A DNA stretch of 64,000 bases, from positions 1 to 64,000 of the forward strand of contig JALEMG010000016.1 of assembly GCA_022768375.1 (NCBI GenBank). The letters are read 5' to 3'. Both the position numbers and the translations under genes were made by a program. Shown here one piece after another: positions 1 to 9,408 of the stretch. This stretch comes from Lentisphaeria bacterium (GTDB lineage: Bacteria > Verrucomicrobiota > Lentisphaeria > Victivallales > Victivallaceae). Under the pieces are notes generated by a model. The model saw only the letters and a program-made list of their open reading frames with translations. It was not told the origin of the DNA and made no database searches. Position 1 is the first letter of the stretch, and the number at the start of each line of letters is the position of its first letter.

Positions 1-60
1 TTTTCGGATGAAAAACAAAGACGCGGCGTCAACCCGTTCCCGCAAAAGAGGAAAAAAAGG

Positions 61-147
61 CGCGGGAAAAAACAGAAGTTTTTTCCTCGGGGTTGCAAGG
101 TTGCGAAACCTTGCCGGGGGAGTTTGAGGGGCGAGGAGCCCCTCAAA
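61..147 (+). repeat. Three-hairpin intergenic element, copy A
   Basis: Three consecutive hairpins: an A-rich/T-rich stem (about 63-88), GCAAGGTT/AACCTTGC (95-102 with 107-114), and TTTGAGGGGC/GCCCCTCAAA (123-132 with 138-147) around the loop GAGGA. The same series recurs inverted at 36181-36268 and in diverged form near 42573-42626. It lies downstream of the minus-strand gene ending at 300. There is no T-tract after the last stem on the plus strand, so it is not a simple plus-strand terminator. The rest of 1-299 holds only a small hairpin, GTCGGC/GCCGAC at 241-256. Confidence 0.75.
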
Positions 148-299
148 AAACACCACGAACAGAATCAATCGTACCACCGCCTCCCGCTCAACCATTGCGG
201 AAAATTGAAATTTCCCGCAACATCGCTCCCGGCAGGAGGTGTCGGCTTGCGCCGACCTGAACGCGAAAAGCGCATCCCGCGTACCGCAAACGCTCCGAC

Positions 300-938
300 T
301 TACCGGACGAATTTCGGCGGGCGATGCCAAACGTTGACGTCAAGCCATGCGGCAACCCGGGCGAAGTATTCCCGGAAGTGGTTGCGGCGGCGGACGCGGT
401 CGCTCACGTTTTCGACGGCGACGAACCCGATCGCGTCGATGCCGTGCTTCCGCGCGATGTAAACCGCCCGGGCCGCGTGAAACCGCTGGGAGACGATCAC
501 GATCCGGTCACAGCCGAAAGCGGTCTTGGCCCGCACCACGGAATCCAGCGTGCGGAATCCGGCATAGTCCAGCGTCATCGCGCTTTCCGGCACGTCCAGT
601 TCCCGGAGCGCCTCGAACATATCCCGCGGTTCGTTGTAATCCCGGCGGCTGTTGTCCCCGGAGATCAGGATGTGCCGGACCTTGCCCGCGTGGTACAATT
701 GCGCCGCGGCGGCCACCCGGCTTTGGAAGTAGCAATTGGGGATGCCCGCCGGCGTGATCCGCGCCGCGCCGGGAACCAATGCCGTTTCCCGCGGCGGCAC
801 GGCGGAGAGGTCGTCGTAACACCGCGCTTCACATCCCGCGATCATCCGGTCGCAGTACCACACGAAAAGCCCCGCCGCCGACAGTATCCCCGCGACAACG
901 GTAACGCATGACAACGTGATTCTGACTTTCTTTTTCAT
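300..938 (-). CDS. SanA/YdcF-like DUF218 membrane protein
   Basis: A 212-residue protein of the DUF218 (SanA/YdcF) family, whose members act at the cell envelope; the exact reaction is not established for the family. One N-terminal membrane segment (about residues 8-28) is followed by the DUF218 domain, with the family-like segments LVPGA, ISGDN and SQRFHAARA visible in order. The start is placed at the MKKK codon rather than further upstream because the upstream extension is unlike the family, overlaps the divergent gene's promoter, and a promoter (TTGCAA, 17 bp, TACATT at 1002-1030) lies just before this start. The ribosome binding site is weak. It is monocistronic and divergent from the acyltransferase gene. 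Function in outer-membrane barrier maintenance is inference from SanA. Confidence 0.8.
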   Translation of the reverse strand: MKKKVRITLSCVTVVAGILSAAGLFVWYCDRMIAGCEARCYDDLSAVPPRETALVPGAARITPAGIPNCYFQSRVAAAAQLYHAGKVRHILISGDNSRRDYNEPRDMFEALRELDVPESAMTLDYAGFRTLDSVVRAKTAFGCDRIVIVSQRFHAARAVYIARKHGIDAIGFVAVENVSDRVRRRNHFREYFARVAAWLDVNVWHRPPKFVR

Positions 939-1001
939 CCGGCATTCCGCGCTTGATTTTTCACGGGAAGCGACAGTTTTCGCGCTCCCTCCACCGGCGA
1001 T

Positions 1002-1030
1002 AATGTACCACGGATCCGAAGTGTTTGCAA
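1002..1030 (-). promoter_or_regulatory. Promoter for the SanA-like gene
   Basis: On the minus strand TTGCAA (1025-1030), 17-bp spacer, TACATT (1002-1007), about 65 bp before the chosen start codon. Confidence 0.6.
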
Positions 1031-1087
1031 CCGGAAAAAACGATTCCCGGCAAAAAAAAAACCGGCCCCCGATCCGCGGCGGAACGC

Positions 1088-1115
1088 TTGCAAAAAACGG
1101 CGGCGGCGGTATATT
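1088..1115 (+). promoter_or_regulatory. Promoter for the acyltransferase gene
   Basis: TTGCAA (1088-1093), 16-bp spacer, TATATT (1110-1115). It sits 44 bp before the ATG at 1159 and shows that the open frame upstream of 1159 is not translated. Confidence 0.65.
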
Positions 1116-1158
1116 AGGGAAATTGTATTTTCGACTCACAGACAAGGAATGGCAATAC

Positions 1159-2334
1159 ATGATCAAATGGATGCAAACGATCGGGATTCCCACGGACGAA
1201 GCGGAGACCAGTCTCTCCACTTGTCCCGGGGACATCTTTTTTCTGCAGGACGACTTCATCCGCAAACACTGGTTCCCCGCGGAACTGCCCCCGGAGCAAC
1301 TCGAACCGACGCTGGCATTCGCGGCGGAGATCCGGCGCGACGAAAAATTCCGGCTGCTGGCGTGGCACCTGCACCGCTACTGTCTTTTCACTCCCCTGTC
1401 CCGGTTTGAAGGCGATCGCATACCGGACCTTCTTCCCGGTCTGGGCGTAAAATCCGGCATGCTGTTTCTGCTTGTCGCGCTCTCGCTGATCCCGACCTAC
1501 CTTGCCCGGGCGGAGCGGGAAGGTTTCCCCGTCCGCTACGGCGAAGCCGGGGCAAAGCGGATCGGTTCGGTGCTGTGTTTCTACGCCCAACTTTTCGACG
1601 GGGCGTTCGGCATCCGGCCCCAGAGTCTGGCATTTCAACTGCACTATCTGGGGACGGCCACGTGGCGGATCGGCCGGTTCGATTTCCAGATCCGGCGGAC
1701 GGACGGGGTGTTCCCGGTGATCTTCCGGCGGGACGGGGAGTTGCTGGCCTTCTGTCCGGACGGGACGCCGCTGACATCCGACGGAGACCGGGCGGCGAAG
1801 GAATCCGTTCCGGCGCGGACGGCGGCGCTGCGGGAGGACGGAACGCGTTTGACCGGCATCCCCATCGACCTGCGGACCGGTTTGGCCCGAAATGAACCGC
1901 TGACCATTGACCGGCAAGCCGGATGGGAACTTCTGGCCGGTCCGGGGGAGTGGACGCTGTACTTTCACATCCCCGGCGGCGGCGGCATGACGCCGGAGCG
2001 GTGCCGGGACTCCTTCCGCGAAGCGCGGGACTTTTTCCGGCAATACGCCCCGGACAAGGATTTCCGGGTCATCTGGAGTTCCTCGTGGATTTTCAATCCG
2101 GTGTGGCGGGAATTTCTGCCCGGTTCCAACATGGCCGCGCTGATCGACCGGGGGAACCTGTTCCCGACCGCAGCCCACACCCCCAATCCGGGGATGTTCT
2201 TCGTTTTCGGCAGGCACGAGGGCGATCCGGCGGAGTTTCCCGCCCGCAACTCCGTGGAGAAGGCCGTACTGCGGGCATACCGGGAACATCGGCTCCGGGC
2301 GTGCGGATTCTTTCTGCCGACGGATCGCGTCTGA
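1159..2334 (+). CDS. GNAT-like acyltransferase domain protein (NAT_N/GNAT_C type)
   Basis: A 391-residue protein resembling the two-domain acyltransferases that have an N-acyltransferase N-terminal domain and a GNAT-like C-terminal domain. The C-terminal part carries the characteristic run around residues 270-330: a hydrophobic strand ending in HIPGGGGMTPERC, then an FREARDFF helix, then a strand with SSWIFNP. The acceptor substrate is unknown for this family. The start is ATG at 1159, preceded by AAGGA at about 10 bp and by a promoter at 1088-1115; an in-frame extension upstream would cross the promoter and is rejected. The gene stands alone, divergent from the SanA-like gene. The fold assignment is fairly secure; no biochemical role can be given. 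Confidence 0.7.
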   Translation: MIKWMQTIGIPTDEAETSLSTCPGDIFFLQDDFIRKHWFPAELPPEQLEPTLAFAAEIRRDEKFRLLAWHLHRYCLFTPLSRFEGDRIPDLLPGLGVKSGMLFLLVALSLIPTYLARAEREGFPVRYGEAGAKRIGSVLCFYAQLFDGAFGIRPQSLAFQLHYLGTATWRIGRFDFQIRRTDGVFPVIFRRDGELLAFCPDGTPLTSDGDRAAKESVPARTAALREDGTRLTGIPIDLRTGLARNEPLTIDRQAGWELLAGPGEWTLYFHIPGGGGMTPERCRDSFREARDFFRQYAPDKDFRVIWSSSWIFNPVWREFLPGSNMAALIDRGNLFPTAAHTPNPGMFFVFGRHEGDPAEFPARNSVEKAVLRAYREHRLRACGFFLPTDRV

Positions 2335-2401
2335 GTGCCGCGCCAAAATCCGTAAACAGCGAAAAAAGCGAGATTTTTTCATTTCATCGCCACATGGAGA
2401 C

Positions 2402-2430
2402 TTGACAAATGCGGCGGATGATGGTATATT
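2402..2430 (+). promoter_or_regulatory. Near-consensus sigma-70 promoter of the small-ORF unit
   Basis: TTGACA (2402-2407), 17-bp spacer, TATATT (2425-2430). The -35 is a perfect consensus. It is placed about 55 bp before the 45-codon ORF at 2486. Confidence 0.75.
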
Positions 2431-2485
2431 CATTCCCGTATAGAAGGCAGGAATACATGGAATTTTAGGAATTCAGGAGAAGGCC

Positions 2486-2623
2486 ATGATGAAGAAATTG
2501 GAGTATGATTATCCGGCTCTGGAGGATGCATCGTTCGGAACGTTCATCTGCGGGGATACGCCTATGACGCCCGGGCCATCCGAGGATGGGGAAACCGATG
2601 ATCTCGGCGGAGGGATCGACTGA
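2486..2623 (+). CDS. 45-residue acidic small protein or leader peptide, unknown
   Basis: Starts MMKKLEYDYPALED and ends DDLGGGID, 45 residues in all, with one cysteine (residue 22) and a strongly acidic C-terminal third. I do not recognise it. It is supported as a gene by its setting: a perfect -35 with TATATT at 2402-2430, a strong AGGAGAAGG ribosome binding site a few bases before the ATG, and an intrinsic terminator at 2654-2687 only 31 bp after the stop. A three-codon ORF (ATG GAA TTT TAG) with its own AGGAA lies at 2458-2469, upstream in the same leader. It may be a free small protein, or a leader peptide controlling read-through into the gene at 2722, which has no clear promoter of its own. 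There is no signal peptide or membrane segment. Confidence 0.6.
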   Translation: MMKKLEYDYPALEDASFGTFICGDTPMTPGPSEDGETDDLGGGID

Positions 2624-2653
2624 TCCCCGCATCGTCCGATTCAGGATCTCGTG

Positions 2654-2687
2654 CCGCTTCGGGAACACATCCCGGGGCGGTCTTTTT
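2654..2687 (+). terminator. Intrinsic terminator after the small ORF
   Basis: An 11-bp stem (2654-2664 with 2670-2680, two T-G wobbles) with a 5-base loop, followed by TCTTTTT. It separates the small ORF from the gene at 2722. Confidence 0.7.
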
Positions 2688-2721
2688 ATGATGTCGTAAT
2701 AGGATAACTTCGGGTGACACC

Positions 2722-3750
2722 ATGCTTCATGCGCTGAAACAAATCGACCCTCAAATCCTGCAACTGCGTTCCGCCGACGGCGCGGTCCTCGTCTCCAACC
2801 ATCTGCAGGGCCGGATCTTTGCCGAAATTGAAGGAGAACTGATCCACAACTTCGTCCCGGAACTGGCCGCGCATCCGTCACCGGACGAATTCAACAATCT
2901 CGGCGGCAATTCCCTGTGGCCCGCGCCGGAGGGGGGAGATTTCGCCTACAATTATCCCACTGGCGGCAACTGGACCGTCCAGCCCGGGATCAATACGATT
3001 CCGACGCATACGGTAAAAGCGGGACCCGCCGCGCTGGAAATCGCCAAAAGCATCTCGCTTTTCAACCGCAAAGGGCACACCATCGAATTGGATTTCTCCC
3101 GTTCCGTGACGCTGATCGAAGAACGCGATCTGCCGGATGAACCCGGTGTCCGGCGCATCGGCTACCGTTCGGTGGACCGGTTGTCGCCCCGCGGTGATTT
3201 TTCCTCCCAGGATTTTCTGCTGGGAGCATGGTCGCTGGAGCAATTGCCGGGAGCCGAAGGCATCGTCGCATTCGGCCGCTGCCTGAATGGTGCGGCGGAG
3301 TGTATCAATGACGACTTCTACGGCAGCGCGGAGGAGCGGATCGTCCGCGACGGGGACACCTTCACCTTTCAGTTGGGCGGGCCGAAACGGCTGCAGGTGG
3401 GAATCCGGGCGGCCGCCGCGCCGGTGATGATCGGTTCGCTGGACCCGGCGCGCGGGGTCATGGTCCTGCGGACCACCCCGTCTCAGGAAGGCGTGTACTT
3501 CAACATCGCGGACAACGACCAGCCCGCCGGACCGTACAGCGCTGCGGACATGTTCAGCATCTTCAACGGTTCCCGGGAACTGAACTTCCACGAATTGGAA
3601 ACCATCGCCCCCATGCGGGTAAATGCGGACGGCAGTCTCGCCGCTTCGGAACTGACTTCCACGACCCTGATCTTCCGCGGTCCCGCGGAAAAACTCCGGC
3701 ATATCCTCGCCTGCTTCGGCTTACTTCTTTTCTCGCGGGAAAAGAAGTAA
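2722..3750 (+). CDS. Aldose-epimerase-like protein (DUF4380/DUF6786-like)
   Basis: A 342-residue cytoplasmic protein without signal peptide. An N-terminal segment GGNSLWPAPEGGDF (about residues 54-67) resembles the conserved glycine/tryptophan/glutamate block of the beta-sandwich families related to galactose mutarotase (DUF4380, DUF6786). The rest is strand-rich, as expected for that fold. A role in binding or epimerising a sugar is inference. The gene begins 35 bp after the terminator at 2654-2687, so it may depend on read-through from the small-ORF unit. The last residues (LLFSREKK) are encoded by interspersed repeat R1, which starts at about 3724, so the ancestral stop was probably lost when the repeat arrived. 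Confidence 0.55.
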   Translation: MLHALKQIDPQILQLRSADGAVLVSNHLQGRIFAEIEGELIHNFVPELAAHPSPDEFNNLGGNSLWPAPEGGDFAYNYPTGGNWTVQPGINTIPTHTVKAGPAALEIAKSISLFNRKGHTIELDFSRSVTLIEERDLPDEPGVRRIGYRSVDRLSPRGDFSSQDFLLGAWSLEQLPGAEGIVAFGRCLNGAAECINDDFYGSAEERIVRDGDTFTFQLGGPKRLQVGIRAAAAPVMIGSLDPARGVMVLRTTPSQEGVYFNIADNDQPAGPYSAADMFSIFNGSRELNFHELETIAPMRVNADGSLAASELTSTTLIFRGPAEKLRHILACFGLLLFSREKK

Positions 3751-3825
3751 GACAAGAAAAGGCGACTGCGTTACTTTCTTTCCGAAAAAGAAAGTAACCA
3801 AAGAAAACGGCGGAATGCAAATCGG
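3724..3825 (+). repeat. Two-hairpin interspersed repeat R1
   Basis: About 102 bp. Hairpin one is ACTTCTTTTC/GAAAAGAAGT near 3723-3748; hairpin two is a perfect 12-bp stem GTTACTTTCTTT/AAAGAAAGTAAC around CCGAA (3770-3798). A second copy follows in the same orientation at 3874-3974. R1 overlaps the 3' end of the preceding gene and supplies its stop codon. Confidence 0.8.
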
Positions 3826-3873
3826 ACCGGCGACAACGGAGCCGGAACGCTGTTTCGCGGCGGCACGTTGCCG

Positions 3874-3974
3874 CTCTTTTCCCGCGGGAAAAGAAGTGGG
3901 ACAGGAAAAGGCGACCTCATTACTTTCTTTCCGAAAAAGGAAGTAACCGAAGAAAACGGCGGAATGCAAACCGG
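3874..3974 (+). repeat. Two-hairpin interspersed repeat R2
   Basis: Direct copy of R1 with roughly 85-90% identity by eye. It keeps both hairpins; the second has one wobble pair. It ends 5 bp from the stop codon of the kinase gene on the other strand. Between R1 and R2 are about 48 bp that I cannot assign. Confidence 0.8.
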
Positions 3975-3979
3975 AAACG

Positions 3980-6253
3980 TCACCGCCGAAGCAGTTCGAG
4001 ACAGTTTTTCCAGAACTCCGACGGCGCGGTCCGCGCCTCGGGCACCTGCCGGTTGAACATGGCAAAATCGAATTCCGAAACCTTCACCACTCGGAAGAAC
4101 GCGTCTTTGCTCCGCGCATCCAGTTCGTTCACCACGATTTTCTCATTCCGGTCGGCGTCATTCCGGCAGATCACCTCGCCGGGACGGATGCTGACCACAG
4201 TCATCCGCTGGCCCTTGATCCGAAACACGAGGTTCTGCTTCGGAGTGATCGCCGTCAGCCGGGCAAACTCCCCGCGCATCCGGTCGGCCTCCCGCGGCAT
4301 GGCATCCAGCACGGCGGAAAATTCCCGCTTCAGTTGGCTCTCCCCGGCGGAAGCGCCGAACAGACTGTCACGGTACAATTTCGCCTGCCGCAGCGCTTCG
4401 TCGAACTCGGCCTGACGCCCGTCCTGAATCGCCGCCAGCATCGCCTGACAACAACTTCGGGTATGGGCGGCGATACGGGATTTCAAGTTGGCCAGATGCT
4501 CTTTTTGCCGCGCTTCCTCCGCCCGGCGGACCTGTTCGATCTCCTGCTGCCGCTTTTCACTCTCCCGGCGCAGACGCTCCCGCTCCGACTGAGCGGCGAG
4601 GCGGGCCCGCGTCTCCGCCTCCAGCGCCCGCCGGTAACGGGAACGCATTTCCTCGCGTTCCGGAGCGCAGCGGGAAACTTCATCCGCAACCGCAAACCGC
4701 CGAATCACCGCCGCCAGCAGCGACGCTTCCTCCCGGCTGGCGGGCGCACGCAGCAGCTGCCAGTCCGCATCGACGAATTCCAGACGGAAGTCGCCATTCA
4801 GAATCCGATCCGCGGCCCGCTGGTACTCCGCACGAACCGCCGGAGGAGTCTCCGGAGAAGCGGCCGGAGTTGCCGCGACCGGAGCCGGGACCGGAGCGGC
4901 GGAAGCGGCTCTTTTCAGCCCCGGGAACACCCGAAGCGCCCAGGGCTTCACCGCCGACGGCAGTTTGTCGTACCGGCCCAGCAGATACACCCCGCCTCCC
5001 AGCAGCAGCGCCGCCGCCGCGACCGCGCCGACGATCTTGAAAAACTTTGCCGACGGCAGGGGAAAACGGAAACGGCGTTCCCCGCCGAAATCCTCCGCCC
5101 CGGACGAATTTGCTGTCGGAACCGGCGGAGGCACGATTTGCGACGGTACCGCCGGCGAAGGGGGCGGCGACGCCGTCGCCGGAGCAGGAGAACCGGGCGT
5201 TTTAAGCTGCGGCACGACCGATTTTTTTCCGCCGCGCGGCACAGCCAGTTTCGGCATGGTCTCCGGCTTTTTCGGCGCGGCGGGTGCTCGCACGGGGACC
5301 TCGGGTTCCCGCTCCGCCCGGCGCAGATACGCCTCCAGATCCTCGATCAGCGGTCCGGGGGTCTGGTACCGGTCCTCCAGTTTCCTTGCCATCATCTTGA
5401 GAATGATCCGGTTCAACGCCTCGGGGACCTGCGGATTCACCGATTTCGGCGGCTCCAGTTTGCCGGCGTCGTGCATGCGCGCAAGTTCCTCCGCCGAGGA
5501 CGCCACATACGGAAATCTGCCGGTGACAAACTGAAAAAACGTCGCCCCGAGACTGTAAATGTCGCTGCGCACATCGGTGGGGACCCCGGTCAACTGCTCC
5601 GGGCTGATGTACTGCGGAGTGCCGAACACCTCGTCCGAATCGTCCTCGGGCGCCTCGATGCCGCCGGTCTTGGCCAGCCCCAGATCCGCGAGTTTGGCCA
5701 ATCCGCTGGTATTGTCCAGCATGATGTTGTCCGGTTTGATATCCTGATGGACCAGTTTCTGCTCCCGCCACGCCACGTCCAGCGCCCGGGCGATGTCGCG
5801 GATCACTTTTGCCGCCTGCACGAAGGGAATGATGCCGTCCCGCTTGAGCACCGCCTTCATCGTATCGCCGCGCACCAGTTCCATGGCAAAGTAGAACACG
5901 CCGTCATCCTCTCCGACGGCGTAGGCCTGCACGATATTCGGATGGTTGATCTTCGCCGCCGCCCGAGCCTCCCGAAAGAGACTGTCCACATACTCCCGGT
6001 CATGGGTGTATTCGCCCTGCAGCACCTTGAGGGCGACCGGGCGGTCCAGCGAGATCTGGCGGGCGACGAAAACCTCGCCCATCCCCCCCCGGCTGATCAG
6101 TTTCTCGATCAGAAAATCCCCGATCACCGCGCCGGGGCCGGGGAATTTCTCCGGCGGTATCACTTCGGTCCCGCAATTCGGACACTTCGCCGGGGCGTTC
6201 CCATCCGCCGGGAACGGCTTCTCGCACTTGGAACAGAACAACTTCATTGCCAT
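3980..6253 (-). CDS. Hanks-type Ser/Thr protein kinase with N-terminal zinc ribbon and one TM segment
   Basis: A 757-residue transmembrane kinase of the PknB/Stk type. A zinc ribbon (C7, C10, C24, C27) precedes the kinase domain (about residues 45-310), with a glycine loop SRGGMGEVF, the ATP lysine K76 in VALKVL, catalytic HQDIKPDN (D171, N176), DLG at 190-192 and SPE at 217-219. The usual HRD arginine is Q, a non-RD variant. A proline-rich linker leads to a membrane helix (about 405-426), then a charged coiled-coil and a C-terminal region with no repeat I can name. ATG at 6253 (or 6247) follows the stop of the SurA-like gene by 9 bp, so the two form an operon. Substrates are unknown. Confidence 0.9.
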   Translation of the reverse strand: MAMKLFCSKCEKPFPADGNAPAKCPNCGTEVIPPEKFPGPGAVIGDFLIEKLISRGGMGEVFVARQISLDRPVALKVLQGEYTHDREYVDSLFREARAAAKINHPNIVQAYAVGEDDGVFYFAMELVRGDTMKAVLKRDGIIPFVQAAKVIRDIARALDVAWREQKLVHQDIKPDNIMLDNTSGLAKLADLGLAKTGGIEAPEDDSDEVFGTPQYISPEQLTGVPTDVRSDIYSLGATFFQFVTGRFPYVASSAEELARMHDAGKLEPPKSVNPQVPEALNRIILKMMARKLEDRYQTPGPLIEDLEAYLRRAEREPEVPVRAPAAPKKPETMPKLAVPRGGKKSVVPQLKTPGSPAPATASPPPSPAVPSQIVPPPVPTANSSGAEDFGGERRFRFPLPSAKFFKIVGAVAAAALLLGGGVYLLGRYDKLPSAVKPWALRVFPGLKRAASAAPVPAPVAATPAASPETPPAVRAEYQRAADRILNGDFRLEFVDADWQLLRAPASREEASLLAAVIRRFAVADEVSRCAPEREEMRSRYRRALEAETRARLAAQSERERLRRESEKRQQEIEQVRRAEEARQKEHLANLKSRIAAHTRSCCQAMLAAIQDGRQAEFDEALRQAKLYRDSLFGASAGESQLKREFSAVLDAMPREADRMRGEFARLTAITPKQNLVFRIKGQRMTVVSIRPGEVICRNDADRNEKIVVNELDARSKDAFFRVVKVSEFDFAMFNRQVPEARTAPSEFWKNCLELLRR

Positions 6254-6262
6254 GTCATCCCA

Positions 6263-7213
6263 TCAAAAATAGTATTCGATCACCGCACGGGAGCGCAGTT
6301 TCCGGAAATACTCGCGCAACACCCGCTCCCGGCGGCTGTTCTCCATATCCTGACGGATCCGGCCCTCCACCGCGGCGAAATCCGCGCCCAGCGGCTGCTT
6401 GTGGGACACCACCTTGAGCCAGACCATGCCGCCGTCGACTTTCAGCGGACCGACGACCTGGCCCGGCGTCACCGTCGGCAGCGCGGCGGCGAACTCCGGG
6501 CGAAGCAGTTTCCGCTCGATCTCGCCCAGATACCCGTCCCCCGCCTCCGGGGTGTACTTCGCCACCAGCGCGGCGAAATCCGCGTCCTTCGCCGACAGCG
6601 CGGCGGAAACTTCCTCCGCGTCCCGCGCCAGTTCCGGCCGGGCGGCGGACAATTTCAGCATGGACAACCCGATCTTCTCCGCTTCGGAATATTTTTTTTC
6701 GTTGGCCTTGAAGTACTCGTACATCTCCCGGGGCGTCGGACTGCCGTCGATTTTCACCTGCCGGAGCACCATCAACTGCACCATCATGCCCTTTTCCACG
6801 TCCTGCCGCATCTGCTCCAGCGTCAGCCCTTCCTTGCGCAGCCGGCGCAGCCACTCCTCCCGGGAACGGCACCCCATATTTTCCGCCACCTCGTCCAGTT
6901 CGCGTTCGATGTCGCGGTTGGATATCCTGAAACTCTGCTTGGCGTACTCCGACTGCACCAGTTTGTGGTCGATCATCCGATCCACCGCCTTGCGGCGCAG
7001 TTCGTGAATCTCCTGCTCCAGCAGTTTCCCCGAATACACCGCCCCGAGTTGGAACTCCTTCTGTACCGTCAACGGCAGCACGTCCATCAAAGAAATCGCC
7101 TCGCCGTTGACCGACGCCAGAATGGAATCCATCTCGCTGTGTCCCGGCGCCGCCGTCAGTTTCAGCGCGCATGGAACCATGAACATCAACGCCAACAGAT
7201 ATTTTCTCAACAT
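6263..7213 (-). CDS. SurA-like periplasmic foldase / parvulin-type peptidyl-prolyl isomerase
   Basis: A 316-residue exported protein with a signal peptide (about 1-21, cut after a TAA/APG region). A SurA-type N-terminal chaperone region (about 30-150) with the typical ASVNGEAIS start is followed by a degenerate parvulin (PpiC-like) domain (about 155-270), including GDGYLGEI and a PGQVVGPLKVDGG segment. Such proteins escort outer-membrane proteins through the periplasm. It is first in an operon with the Ser/Thr kinase. The promoter (TTGCAG, 17 bp, TATATT at 7251-7279) lies inside the 3' end of the upstream tsaC gene. Whether isomerase activity is kept is uncertain. Confidence 0.8.
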   Translation of the reverse strand: MLRKYLLALMFMVPCALKLTAAPGHSEMDSILASVNGEAISLMDVLPLTVQKEFQLGAVYSGKLLEQEIHELRRKAVDRMIDHKLVQSEYAKQSFRISNRDIERELDEVAENMGCRSREEWLRRLRKEGLTLEQMRQDVEKGMMVQLMVLRQVKIDGSPTPREMYEYFKANEKKYSEAEKIGLSMLKLSAARPELARDAEEVSAALSAKDADFAALVAKYTPEAGDGYLGEIERKLLRPEFAAALPTVTPGQVVGPLKVDGGMVWLKVVSHKQPLGADFAAVEGRIRQDMENSRRERVLREYFRKLRSRAVIEYYF

Positions 7214-7250
7214 CCCGTTCTCCCGTTACAGTCCGCCGCCATTGTCCCCT

Positions 7251-7279
7251 AATATACTCCGTCAACTCAAGTTCTGCAA
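7251..7279 (-). promoter_or_regulatory. Promoter for the surA-like/kinase operon
   Basis: Minus strand TTGCAG (7274-7279), 17 bp, TATATT (7251-7256). It overlaps the tsaC stop codon region. Confidence 0.65.
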
Positions 7280-7855
7280 ATCCACCGCGCCCCGCCGCAG
7301 AATCCGTACCCGGTCGCCGCAGGCGTCCACCACCGTCGAACCGCACGCGCCGGGCGGCAGCCCCCCCCCGTCCACGGCGCAATCAACTTCCCCGCGAAGT
7401 TGTTCCAGCGCGGCGTCGCAACTGAGCACATCCGGCATGCCGGACGCGTTGGCGCTGGTCTGAGCCAGCGGTTCCCCCACCCGGCGCAGCAGCGCGGTCA
7501 GCAGAGGATGGTCCGGGACCCGGAATCCCTGTGTGCCTCCGTCCCGACACGGCGCGATAATGGTCAGCGCTCCGGGCGTGAACCCGGCGGCCAGACGCTC
7601 CGGCAGTCCGTCCAGCACGACCCCGTAGGCGGTCAGACGCCGCCAGTCTCCGATGAACCAGCCCAAACGCTTCGCTTCGGGACGGTTCTTCAACTGAAAG
7701 ATTTTCCGGATCGCCGCCGCGTCGTCAAAGCGGGCAACCAGCCCGTAAACGGTTTCAGTCGGCACCAGCACTACCGCCCCGGGATGCGTCAGCACTTCCG
7801 CCACTTGCGCCGCCGCCGCTTCCGCGGCGGTCGTCGTGAGGTCGATCCGGGTCAA
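7262..7855 (-). CDS. tsaC: L-threonylcarbamoyladenylate synthase (Sua5/YciO/YrdC family)
   Basis: A 197-residue enzyme making threonylcarbamoyl-AMP from threonine, bicarbonate and ATP, the first step of tRNA t6A37 synthesis. The signature VPTETVYGL (about residues 31-39), the KNRPEAKRLGW segment (about 56-66) and TSANASG (about 133-139) are all present. The length fits the short TsaC form without a Sua5 C-terminal domain. The ATG overlaps the stop of the upstream symporter gene by 4 bp, so the two are co-transcribed although functionally unrelated. Compare tcdA at 34647-35369, which acts later on the same modified base. Confidence 0.93.
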   Translation of the reverse strand: MTRIDLTTTAAEAAAAQVAEVLTHPGAVVLVPTETVYGLVARFDDAAAIRKIFQLKNRPEAKRLGWFIGDWRRLTAYGVVLDGLPERLAAGFTPGALTIIAPCRDGGTQGFRVPDHPLLTALLRRVGEPLAQTSANASGMPDVLSCDAALEQLRGEVDCAVDGGGLPPGACGSTVVDACGDRVRILRRGAVDLQNLS

Positions 7856-9408
7856 CGCTCCGCCCCCGGTTCCGCGCCGTTCTCCTCGCGGGAAAACCGC
7901 TCCCCGCAGTAGCAGCAGACAAAGGTCAGCAGAGCGGAGACGAAACCGTACACCGCGCCGCAGGTGATCGCCCGGTCGAAACCGTCACTGCCCAGCAGTT
8001 CCGCCAGACTCATGCCGCTGCCGCAACTGGCGACGAATGTGTATCCCAGCCACACCACGGTCCCGACGATCATCGTGGCCCATGCGGTGTTGCGTCCGGC
8101 TTTCGGCACATACAGCGCCGTCATCACCGGGATGAAAATGATCACCAACTGGGAGATCCAACTGTTGATCATCAAATTGTAGATACTTTTGACCTCGATC
8201 GCCAGCACCAGCGCCACCACCGTCAGGATCACCGTGGTCACGCGGGTGCCCGCCAGCAGGATCTTGGCCCGCATGCCGGGGAAAAGCGGAGCGATGACGT
8301 TGTTGCACAGCAGCGAGGCTCCGGCCAAAAGCGAACTGTCCGCCGAACTCATGATCGCCGCCGTCAATGCCGCGATGAAAACGATCAGCAGCAGCGGATA
8401 GGATTTGCCCATGACCAGAATGGCGATCCGGGGCAGGACCTGATTCTCCAGATCGTCGCCCATGACCTCGGCGGTAATGCCGTACTTCGGCAGAATGATC
8501 CGCGCGGCGATGCCGATGGCGATGGGGATGATGCCGATGAACATGTAGAAAAATCCGGACATCACGCTGCTGGCCACCGCCACATTGGCGTTTTTACTGG
8601 CCAGCGACCGCTGGATCAGGTCCTGCCCGACCATACAGCCCAGTCCCATGATGATCCAACTGCCGATATAGTAGACGTAGTCGTTGAGATTCGCCGCCCC
8701 GACCGGCAGCAGCGTGTCGGACGGGCGCAGCGCACGAAGCAGGGCATCCCCTCCCCCGGCCAGTTCCACGGCTCCCGGCAGCAGAAAGATCAGGCCCACG
8801 ACCATGATCCCCACCTGGACCACGTCGGTGAGCGTCACCGCCCACATTCCGCCGGCGCAGGTGTAAAGCAGCACCACCGCAGCCCCGACAAAAGTGCCGG
8901 TATTCACCGAGATCCCGGTCAGCAGATGCAGGATCGTGCCCAGCCCCAGAAGTTGCGCGCCGAGCCAGCCGATGTAAACCGGAACCATCCACAGCGAAGC
9001 GTAGATGCCCGCGCCCTTGCCGTACCGCCGTTCAATGATGTCGGTGACGGTCATGCATCCCTGCCGGCGCAGCATGCCGACGATGAAAACGCCGGCGAGG
9101 ATCAAACTCAGCGACGCTCCGAAGGGGTCCGCGATCACTCCGCCGATCCCGTCGGAGTAGACCGTGGCCGCCACCCCCATGCTCGACCCCGCGCCGAACC
9201 ACGTCGCCAGCAGCGTTGCCGTGGCCATCCACAGCGGCAGCCGGCGGCCGGCGACCAGAAAGTCGCTCATTTCGCTGACTTTGCGGCTGGAAAACCACCC
9301 GATGACCAACATGCCGATCATGTAGACCAGCATCCCGGCGAACAGCATTTTCGTCGTGCCGGGAGACAACTCGAACCCTCCGGCCGCGGCGGCAAGGCAT
9401 ACGCCCAT
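7852..9408 (-). CDS. Sodium:solute symporter family (SSS) transporter
   Basis: A 518-residue polytopic membrane protein with about 13 hydrophobic helices. Family marks include the FLVAGRRLPLW segment near residue 50, ATWFGAGSSMG near 70-80, and TVTDIIERRYG near residue 118. SSS carriers couple Na+ entry to uptake of sugars, amino acids, vitamins or organic acids; the substrate cannot be read from sequence. The start has CAGGAC/GGAAAGG upstream. A promoter (TTGCAA, 16 bp, TATATT at 9497-9524) precedes it. The stop overlaps the tsaC start. Confidence 0.9.
   Translation of the reverse strand: MGVCLAAAAGGFELSPGTTKMLFAGMLVYMIGMLVIGWFSSRKVSEMSDFLVAGRRLPLWMATATLLATWFGAGSSMGVAATVYSDGIGGVIADPFGASLSLILAGVFIVGMLRRQGCMTVTDIIERRYGKGAGIYASLWMVPVYIGWLGAQLLGLGTILHLLTGISVNTGTFVGAAVVLLYTCAGGMWAVTLTDVVQVGIMVVGLIFLLPGAVELAGGGDALLRALRPSDTLLPVGAANLNDYVYYIGSWIIMGLGCMVGQDLIQRSLASKNANVAVASSVMSGFFYMFIGIIPIAIGIAARIILPKYGITAEVMGDDLENQVLPRIAILVMGKSYPLLLIVFIAALTAAIMSSADSSLLAGASLLCNNVIAPLFPGMRAKILLAGTRVTTVILTVVALVLAIEVKSIYNLMINSWISQLVIIFIPVMTALYVPKAGRNTAWATMIVGTVVWLGYTFVASCGSGMSLAELLGSDGFDRAITCGAVYGFVSALLTFVCCYCGERFSREENGAEPGAER

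Follow-up and report, generated by a model that had tools for sequence, protein, structure and literature searches.

The SynChlorMet (Scm) cassette is defined by the NCBIfam models TIGR04248-TIGR04252 (ScmD, ScmC, ScmE, ScmF and ScmA); no paper on it was found in the open PMC literature. Lasso peptides with HPr-kinase homologues (paeninodin type) are described, in excerpts of two articles, as having a PqqD-like B1/RRE protein and an HprK-type kinase (PMC8498205, PMC5067487). HprK-type kinases phosphorylate lasso precursors on the C-terminal Ser, according to an excerpt of PMC8498205, and YxxP is the characterised recognition motif of lasso-peptide RREs, according to an excerpt of PMC12710340. 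Radical SAM/SPASM RiPPs (sactipeptides, ranthipeptides) were also used for comparison. No open PMC paper was found that joins RiPP, type I secretion, adhesin and PqqD, which does not imply absence from print.

The DNA analysed here (the window) is a stretch of 64,000 nucleotides from a Lentisphaeria bacterium. A 45-codon ORF in it is likely to encode a RiPP-type precursor of a SynChlorMet-like system free of radical SAM enzyme; phosphorylation of the peptide is probable, as is a tie to giant, presumably secreted proteins. Like SynChlorMet, the system has ScmC- and ScmD-like proteins, a small precursor and, in seven genomes, an ScmE-like protein, and one peptide of the family weakly matches the ScmA leader. 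Unlike SynChlorMet, every Scm score lies below the curated cut-off (ScmC and ScmE exceed theirs in 0 of 34 genomes), no ScmE was detected in the window's branch (E <= 1e-20), and the peptides exist in multiple copies associated with giant genes. A YxxP leader, a discrete PqqD-like B1/RRE and an HprK-type kinase are shared with paeninodin-type lasso peptides, from which the family peptides differ in having no C-terminal Ser. The lasso leader peptidase B2 (PF13471) is missing in all 34 genomes, and the lasso-peptide reading was rejected for this reason. Relatives resemble radical SAM/SPASM RiPPs in pairing cysteine-bearing tails with a radical SAM enzyme, whereas the window's branch has neither tail cysteine nor ScmE-like enzyme. 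The system was filed neither under SynChlorMet nor under lasso peptides because their defining features were tested and did not hold.

Transcription unit of the window

The features of the unit and of the gene that follows it are:

2402..2430, + strand: putative sigma-70-type promoter, TTGACA (2402-2407), 17-bp spacer, TATATT (2425-2430), with TG before the second hexamer
2457..2468, + strand: 3-codon upstream ORF ATG GAA TTT TAG, read directly
2475..2479, + strand: Shine-Dalgarno AGGAG, 6 nt ahead of the start codon, read directly
2486..2623, + strand: ORF of a putative RiPP-type precursor of 45 aa; 16 family copies in the genome
2486..2554, + strand: leader part, residues 1-23, Y-x-x-P-x-L-E-x4-F-G-x-F-x2-G, with a presumed leader/core border
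2555..2620, + strand: acidic cysteine-free tail (presumed core), residues 24-45, DTPMTPGPSEDGETDDLGGGID
2653..2687, + strand: intrinsic terminator, 12-pair stem followed by a CTTTTTA tail
2722..3750, + strand: DUF6786 gene, by conservation not part of the system

The promoter matches the consensus at 11 of 12 positions and ranked first of three promoter-like sites in bases 1-6000 (mean of 1.2 sites in shuffled sequences). The terminator stem (2653-2681) with its T-rich tail forms 12 pairs at -21.7 kcal/mol (z = -4.1); none of 200 shuffles was equally stable. The preliminary description had proposed a complete unit made up of a promoter, a 45-codon ORF with a strong ribosome site and a terminator, and these values together with the AGGAG sequence, a good ribosome site, confirmed it. 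The 3-codon upstream ORF included in that proposal does exist in the sequence; nothing was found to support a function for it, the other copies of the family mostly following a giant gene directly. Sequence comparison places the 45-codon ORF well above chance as a coding sequence, since the nearest paralogue in the same genome shares 50% identity with it (E = 3e-9).

The neighbouring gene, formerly called 'epimerase-like', was matched to DUF6786 in Pfam (E 8e-22). It had been described as having no visible promoter, in agreement with a consensus scan that listed none on the + strand at 2431-2722. The 3' end of the DUF6786 ORF passes, at 3721-3960, into a short sequence found there twice (...ttctttccgaaaaagaaagtaacc...) and apparently repeated at other places in the genome; this repeat has probably taken the place of the gene's last residues. 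Rfam models over the window gave two tRNAs only.

The peptide family

The window's own genome (G000; 2.25 Mb in 64 contigs) holds 16 copies of the family, which were found with the 45-residue query and again, the same 16, in profile searches (E <= 0.001). It had been suggested that the ORF might be a small free protein, and that the peptide should be sought in relatives; the suggestion was right as far as it went, as the ORF is a member of a conserved family of peptides, and the search contradicted the case in which no relative has the peptide. Judged by their sequences, the family members are small precursors with a conserved leader and a variable tail. The conserved leader residues of the window peptide are Y7, P10, L12, F17, G18, F20 and G23. 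P10, F17, G18 and G23 are invariant across 16 aligned peptides, P10 and G23 across 31. The single cysteine of the window peptide, Cys22, lies ahead of the tail, which was defined as starting 17 residues after the Tyr. A G-x-[ST] motif is found at the leader/tail border in 20 of 24 cysteine-free peptides (in the pattern window used), and Thr25 within it is the candidate phospho-acceptor of the window peptide.

The window peptide had no match in Pfam or NCBIfam and matched none of the curated RiPP leader families; its profile had no match among PDB sequences. Among 31 peptides scanned against the leader families, none of the window type matched one; the matches seen were weak, namely one to ScmA (E 0.014), one to a sactipeptide family (StsA, E 0.019) and two to the lasso leader L3 (best E 0.099).

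The C-terminus of a giant protein is encoded directly upstream of 11 of the other 15 copies in G000 (10 by domain search, plus C9), and the gaps measured between giant gene and peptide were 11-14 nt. At the copies on C10, C16 and C41, only the last codons of a giant-type gene are visible before the contig end, which brings the copies just behind giant genes to 14 of the 15; the copy on C15 is truncated where its contig ends. The one copy that clearly stands free is that of the window, which has a promoter and terminator to itself. The giant genes are repeat-rich, and three giant proteins from relatives matched no Pfam family; the giant proteins are presumably secreted.

Some further arrangements were observed. 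Giant-protein C-terminal domains with no peptide listed behind them occur at G000:C24:116433 and G000:C27:51, the latter cut by the contig end. Peptides of the cysteine type form in-frame N-terminal extensions of large proteins, as fusions, at L192:2400-5816 (G006:C2, 1138 residues), L193:1671-3209 (G026:C34, 512 residues) and L145:1-898 (G009:C111, at least 299 residues). Tandem arrays comprise three family peptides at L147:287-983 (G026:C19) and two at L208 (G007:C19).

Distribution among genomes

The genus sample consisted of 34 genomes. PqqD (PF05402) was found in 10 of them, and the ScmC-like HprK-related kinase (TIGR04249) in the same 10 and in 0 of 14 control genomes. At E <= 0.001, the combined peptide profile A6 had members in exactly those 10 genomes and in 0 of the 24 others, an agreement that is not blind because the training peptides of A6 came from these same genomes; one row among them (G033, L064) had first come to notice through its position next to a PqqD gene. 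Among the profile matches at E 0.03-1 in the 24 Scm-negative genomes, nine places were inspected and none was member-like (a tenth inspected place belongs to G030); the remaining matches in this range lie mostly inside long open frames. At L209 (G015), two nearby stretches fit a loose pattern, both without the features of the peptide.

A tree built from the type I secretion ATPase does not unite the 10 positive genomes in a single clade. Their distribution takes 4 changes (bootstrap range 3-4), of which at least 2 are forced by well-supported (starred) branches. The tree contained 29 of the 34 genomes, the other five having weaker or shorter matches only, and long branches were flagged. The ABC/C39 exporter family is present in 34/34 genomes and so does not discriminate; type I secretion was rejected as a marker of the system, and the family served as tree marker only.

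Precursor genes adjoin genes for putative modifying enzymes in G194, G128, G186, G159, G161, G023 and G033. In G000, the sequence fetched around PqqD and ScmC showed no peptide gene. Near the ScmC/ScmD/ABC/S26 genes of G023:C36, a C39-type ABC exporter and an HlyD-like gene are followed by a TibC-like heptosyltransferase (TibC_1st, Glyco_transf_9; L065:11997-17430), which suggests glycosylation of secreted proteins.

At the class level, 197 genomes were searched with the peptide-only profile A6. Outside the genus, 10 places in 7 genomes were found and all 10 were fetched. The next gene is ScmC- and/or ScmE-like at five of them (G194:C23, G128, G186:C15, G159 and G161:C33). At G186:C1, about 0.3 kb separate the peptide from a stretch resembling ScmD (41 residues, E 1e-7), and at G161:C13 about 4.5 kb separate it from ScmE-like pieces. 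The fetched stretches of G194:C4, G176 and G185 contain no Scm gene; that of G185 has a distant ABC-exporter match. A long ORF ends just upstream of the peptide, with small gaps, at eight of nine outside loci (G194:C4 being left out). The fullest order, in G194, is giant gene, peptide, ScmC, ScmD, ABC transporter and signal-peptidase-like protein. Seven ScmC-, ScmD- and ScmE-like proteins of these loci were scanned against NCBIfam, and their best matches bore the same Scm names, all below cut-off.

Putative kinase, recognition protein and radical SAM enzyme

In G000, the putative kinase and the putative recognition protein are encoded by stand-alone genes. The ScmD-like protein (G000:C35; L061:3179-3430) scored 52.4 bits against TIGR04248, for which the curated cut-off is 100, and its PqqD match (41.4 bits) exceeds the Pfam cut-off. 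The ScmC-like protein (G000:C1; L138:8460-9299) scored 47.6 bits against TIGR04249, for which the cut-off is 125. The predicted structure of the ScmC-like protein (pLDDT 91.7) resembles PEP carboxykinase and HprK structures, with TM-scores by query length of about 0.5 or lower, which indicate no more than the fold class. In this putative kinase, His113, the P-loop and Asp151-Asp152 do not vary among 12 sequences. For the predicted ScmD structure (pLDDT 94.4), the best PDB matches were lasso B1 proteins bound to leader peptides (TM 0.84).

Seven of the 10 genomes (G006, G007, G009, G018, G023, G026 and G030) have ScmE-like matches, which score 129-212 bits; at E <= 1e-20 none was found in G000, G016 or G033. 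The Scm-negative G032 has two weaker ScmE-like matches (about 81 bits). All 26 peptides inspected from the seven ScmE-positive genomes have at least one tail cysteine. Two of the 26 are fusions to large proteins, from G006 and G026, and a third comes from G009; also among them are G030:C56, G006:C8, G026:C40, G026:C28 and G009:C155; G026:C40:81968 was left out. A tail cysteine occurs in 0 of 25 peptides from the genomes without ScmE, namely G000 (16), G016 (7) and G033 (2), the last being 76% complete, so that its missing ScmE may be a gap. Outside the genus, cysteine-bearing peptides lie beside ScmE at G186:C15 and G161:C33, and cysteine-free peptides beside ScmC, with no ScmE nearby, in G194, G128 and G159. 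The exception is G186:C1, where a cysteine-bearing peptide has no ScmE within about 9 kb (the fetched stretch). From these sequences, the pattern mostly holds outside the genus.

A separate RiPP-like locus was seen in the window's genome at 809-8803 of L062 (G000:C24:1-16000). It comprises a cysteine-rich 45-residue peptide (8666-8803, minus strand), two radical SAM/SPASM genes (6738-8192 and 5288-6748), a heptosyltransferase-type glycosyltransferase and an ABC-like gene.

Proposed maturation and alternative explanations

In the proposed pathway, the PqqD/ScmD-like RiPP recognition element (G000:C35), encoded elsewhere in the genome, would bind the YxxP leader, and the stand-alone HprK/ScmC-like kinase (G000:C1) would phosphorylate Ser/Thr in the tail. 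The modified peptide would then be exported. In relatives with an ScmE-like radical SAM enzyme, the tail cysteines probably receive an additional cysteine-based modification. As most copies lie 11-16 nt behind giant genes, the function of the mature peptide is probably exerted together with these presumably secreted proteins.

Another role had been envisaged in the preliminary description, in which translation of the small ORF governs read-through into the DUF6786 gene. It accommodates a promoter, short ORFs and a terminator ahead of a gene without visible promoter, but close DUF6786 homologues (E <= 1.6e-72) were found in 13 other genomes of the genus, four of them with Scm genes, and a family peptide was present in the fetched flanks of 0/13. 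The arrangement of ORF and DUF6786 gene is thus found only in this genome, and the peptide sequence is kept at unrelated places, its paralogues standing behind unrelated giant genes. Over the whole leader no unusual structure was detected (z = -1.0), and no alternative structure stands out beyond the terminator. The attenuator was rejected because the peptide is not conserved with the DUF6786 gene, and hardly any credence is given to it.

A different challenge to the precursor reading comes from the giant genes. The peptide might work unmodified as a partner to the giant secreted proteins, whether as chaperone, secretion pilot, plug or anchoring peptide, the likeness of its YxxP stretch to RiPP leaders being incidental. 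The position of most copies in G000 directly behind a giant gene (11-14 nt) fits such a role, as do the long ORFs at small distances upstream of eight of nine outside places and the N-terminal fusions of peptides to large proteins in G006, G009 and G026. This explanation is nevertheless unlikely: it leaves unaccounted for both the adjacency and co-occurrence with ScmC-, ScmD- and ScmE-like genes and the match between tail cysteines and radical SAM enzyme, and free-standing copies exist (window, G007, G030). It could also be supposed that the family is functional and that the window copy, as a duplicate moved out of place, has ceased to function. This copy differs from the others (50% identity or less) and stands alone among the 16 of G000 in being clearly free-standing, C15 being cut by the contig end; its motif, ribosome site, promoter and terminator are nevertheless all intact, which makes this supposition very improbable. 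The reading as a precursor is preferred, with several of the results above counting against it: Scm scores below the curated cut-offs, no peptide gene in the sequence fetched around PqqD and ScmC of G000, peptides that lack a C-terminal Ser and match the curated RiPP leader families weakly or not at all, three outside places with no Scm gene in the fetched sequence, and the two other radical SAM genes at L062. It draws on comparisons of sequence for the family, the leader motif, the co-occurrence, the adjacency in other genera and the correlation of cysteines with radical SAM enzyme, and on predicted folds for the kinase and the recognition protein.

Significance

A broader proposal is made tentatively, and we regard it as possible rather than probable. 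The system may be an undescribed kind of RiPP of gut Lentisphaeria, with an HprK/ScmC-like kinase and a PqqD-type element and no radical SAM enzyme, in which the multicopy peptide, produced from operons shared with giant secreted proteins, is modified and forms a structural or functional part of the cell-surface protein and not a diffusible product. If so, the N-terminal peptide fusions would represent RiPP-style modification of a protein domain.

If the precursor reading is right, the window peptide family provides candidate substrates for ScmC-like kinases. The natural split between genomes with and without radical SAM enzyme, and between tails with and without cysteine, on a background of the same leader, recognition protein and kinase, would provide a test of the action of each enzyme. 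RiPP-type maturation would then also serve peptides that are encoded with, or fused to, giant and presumably secreted proteins of gut bacteria.
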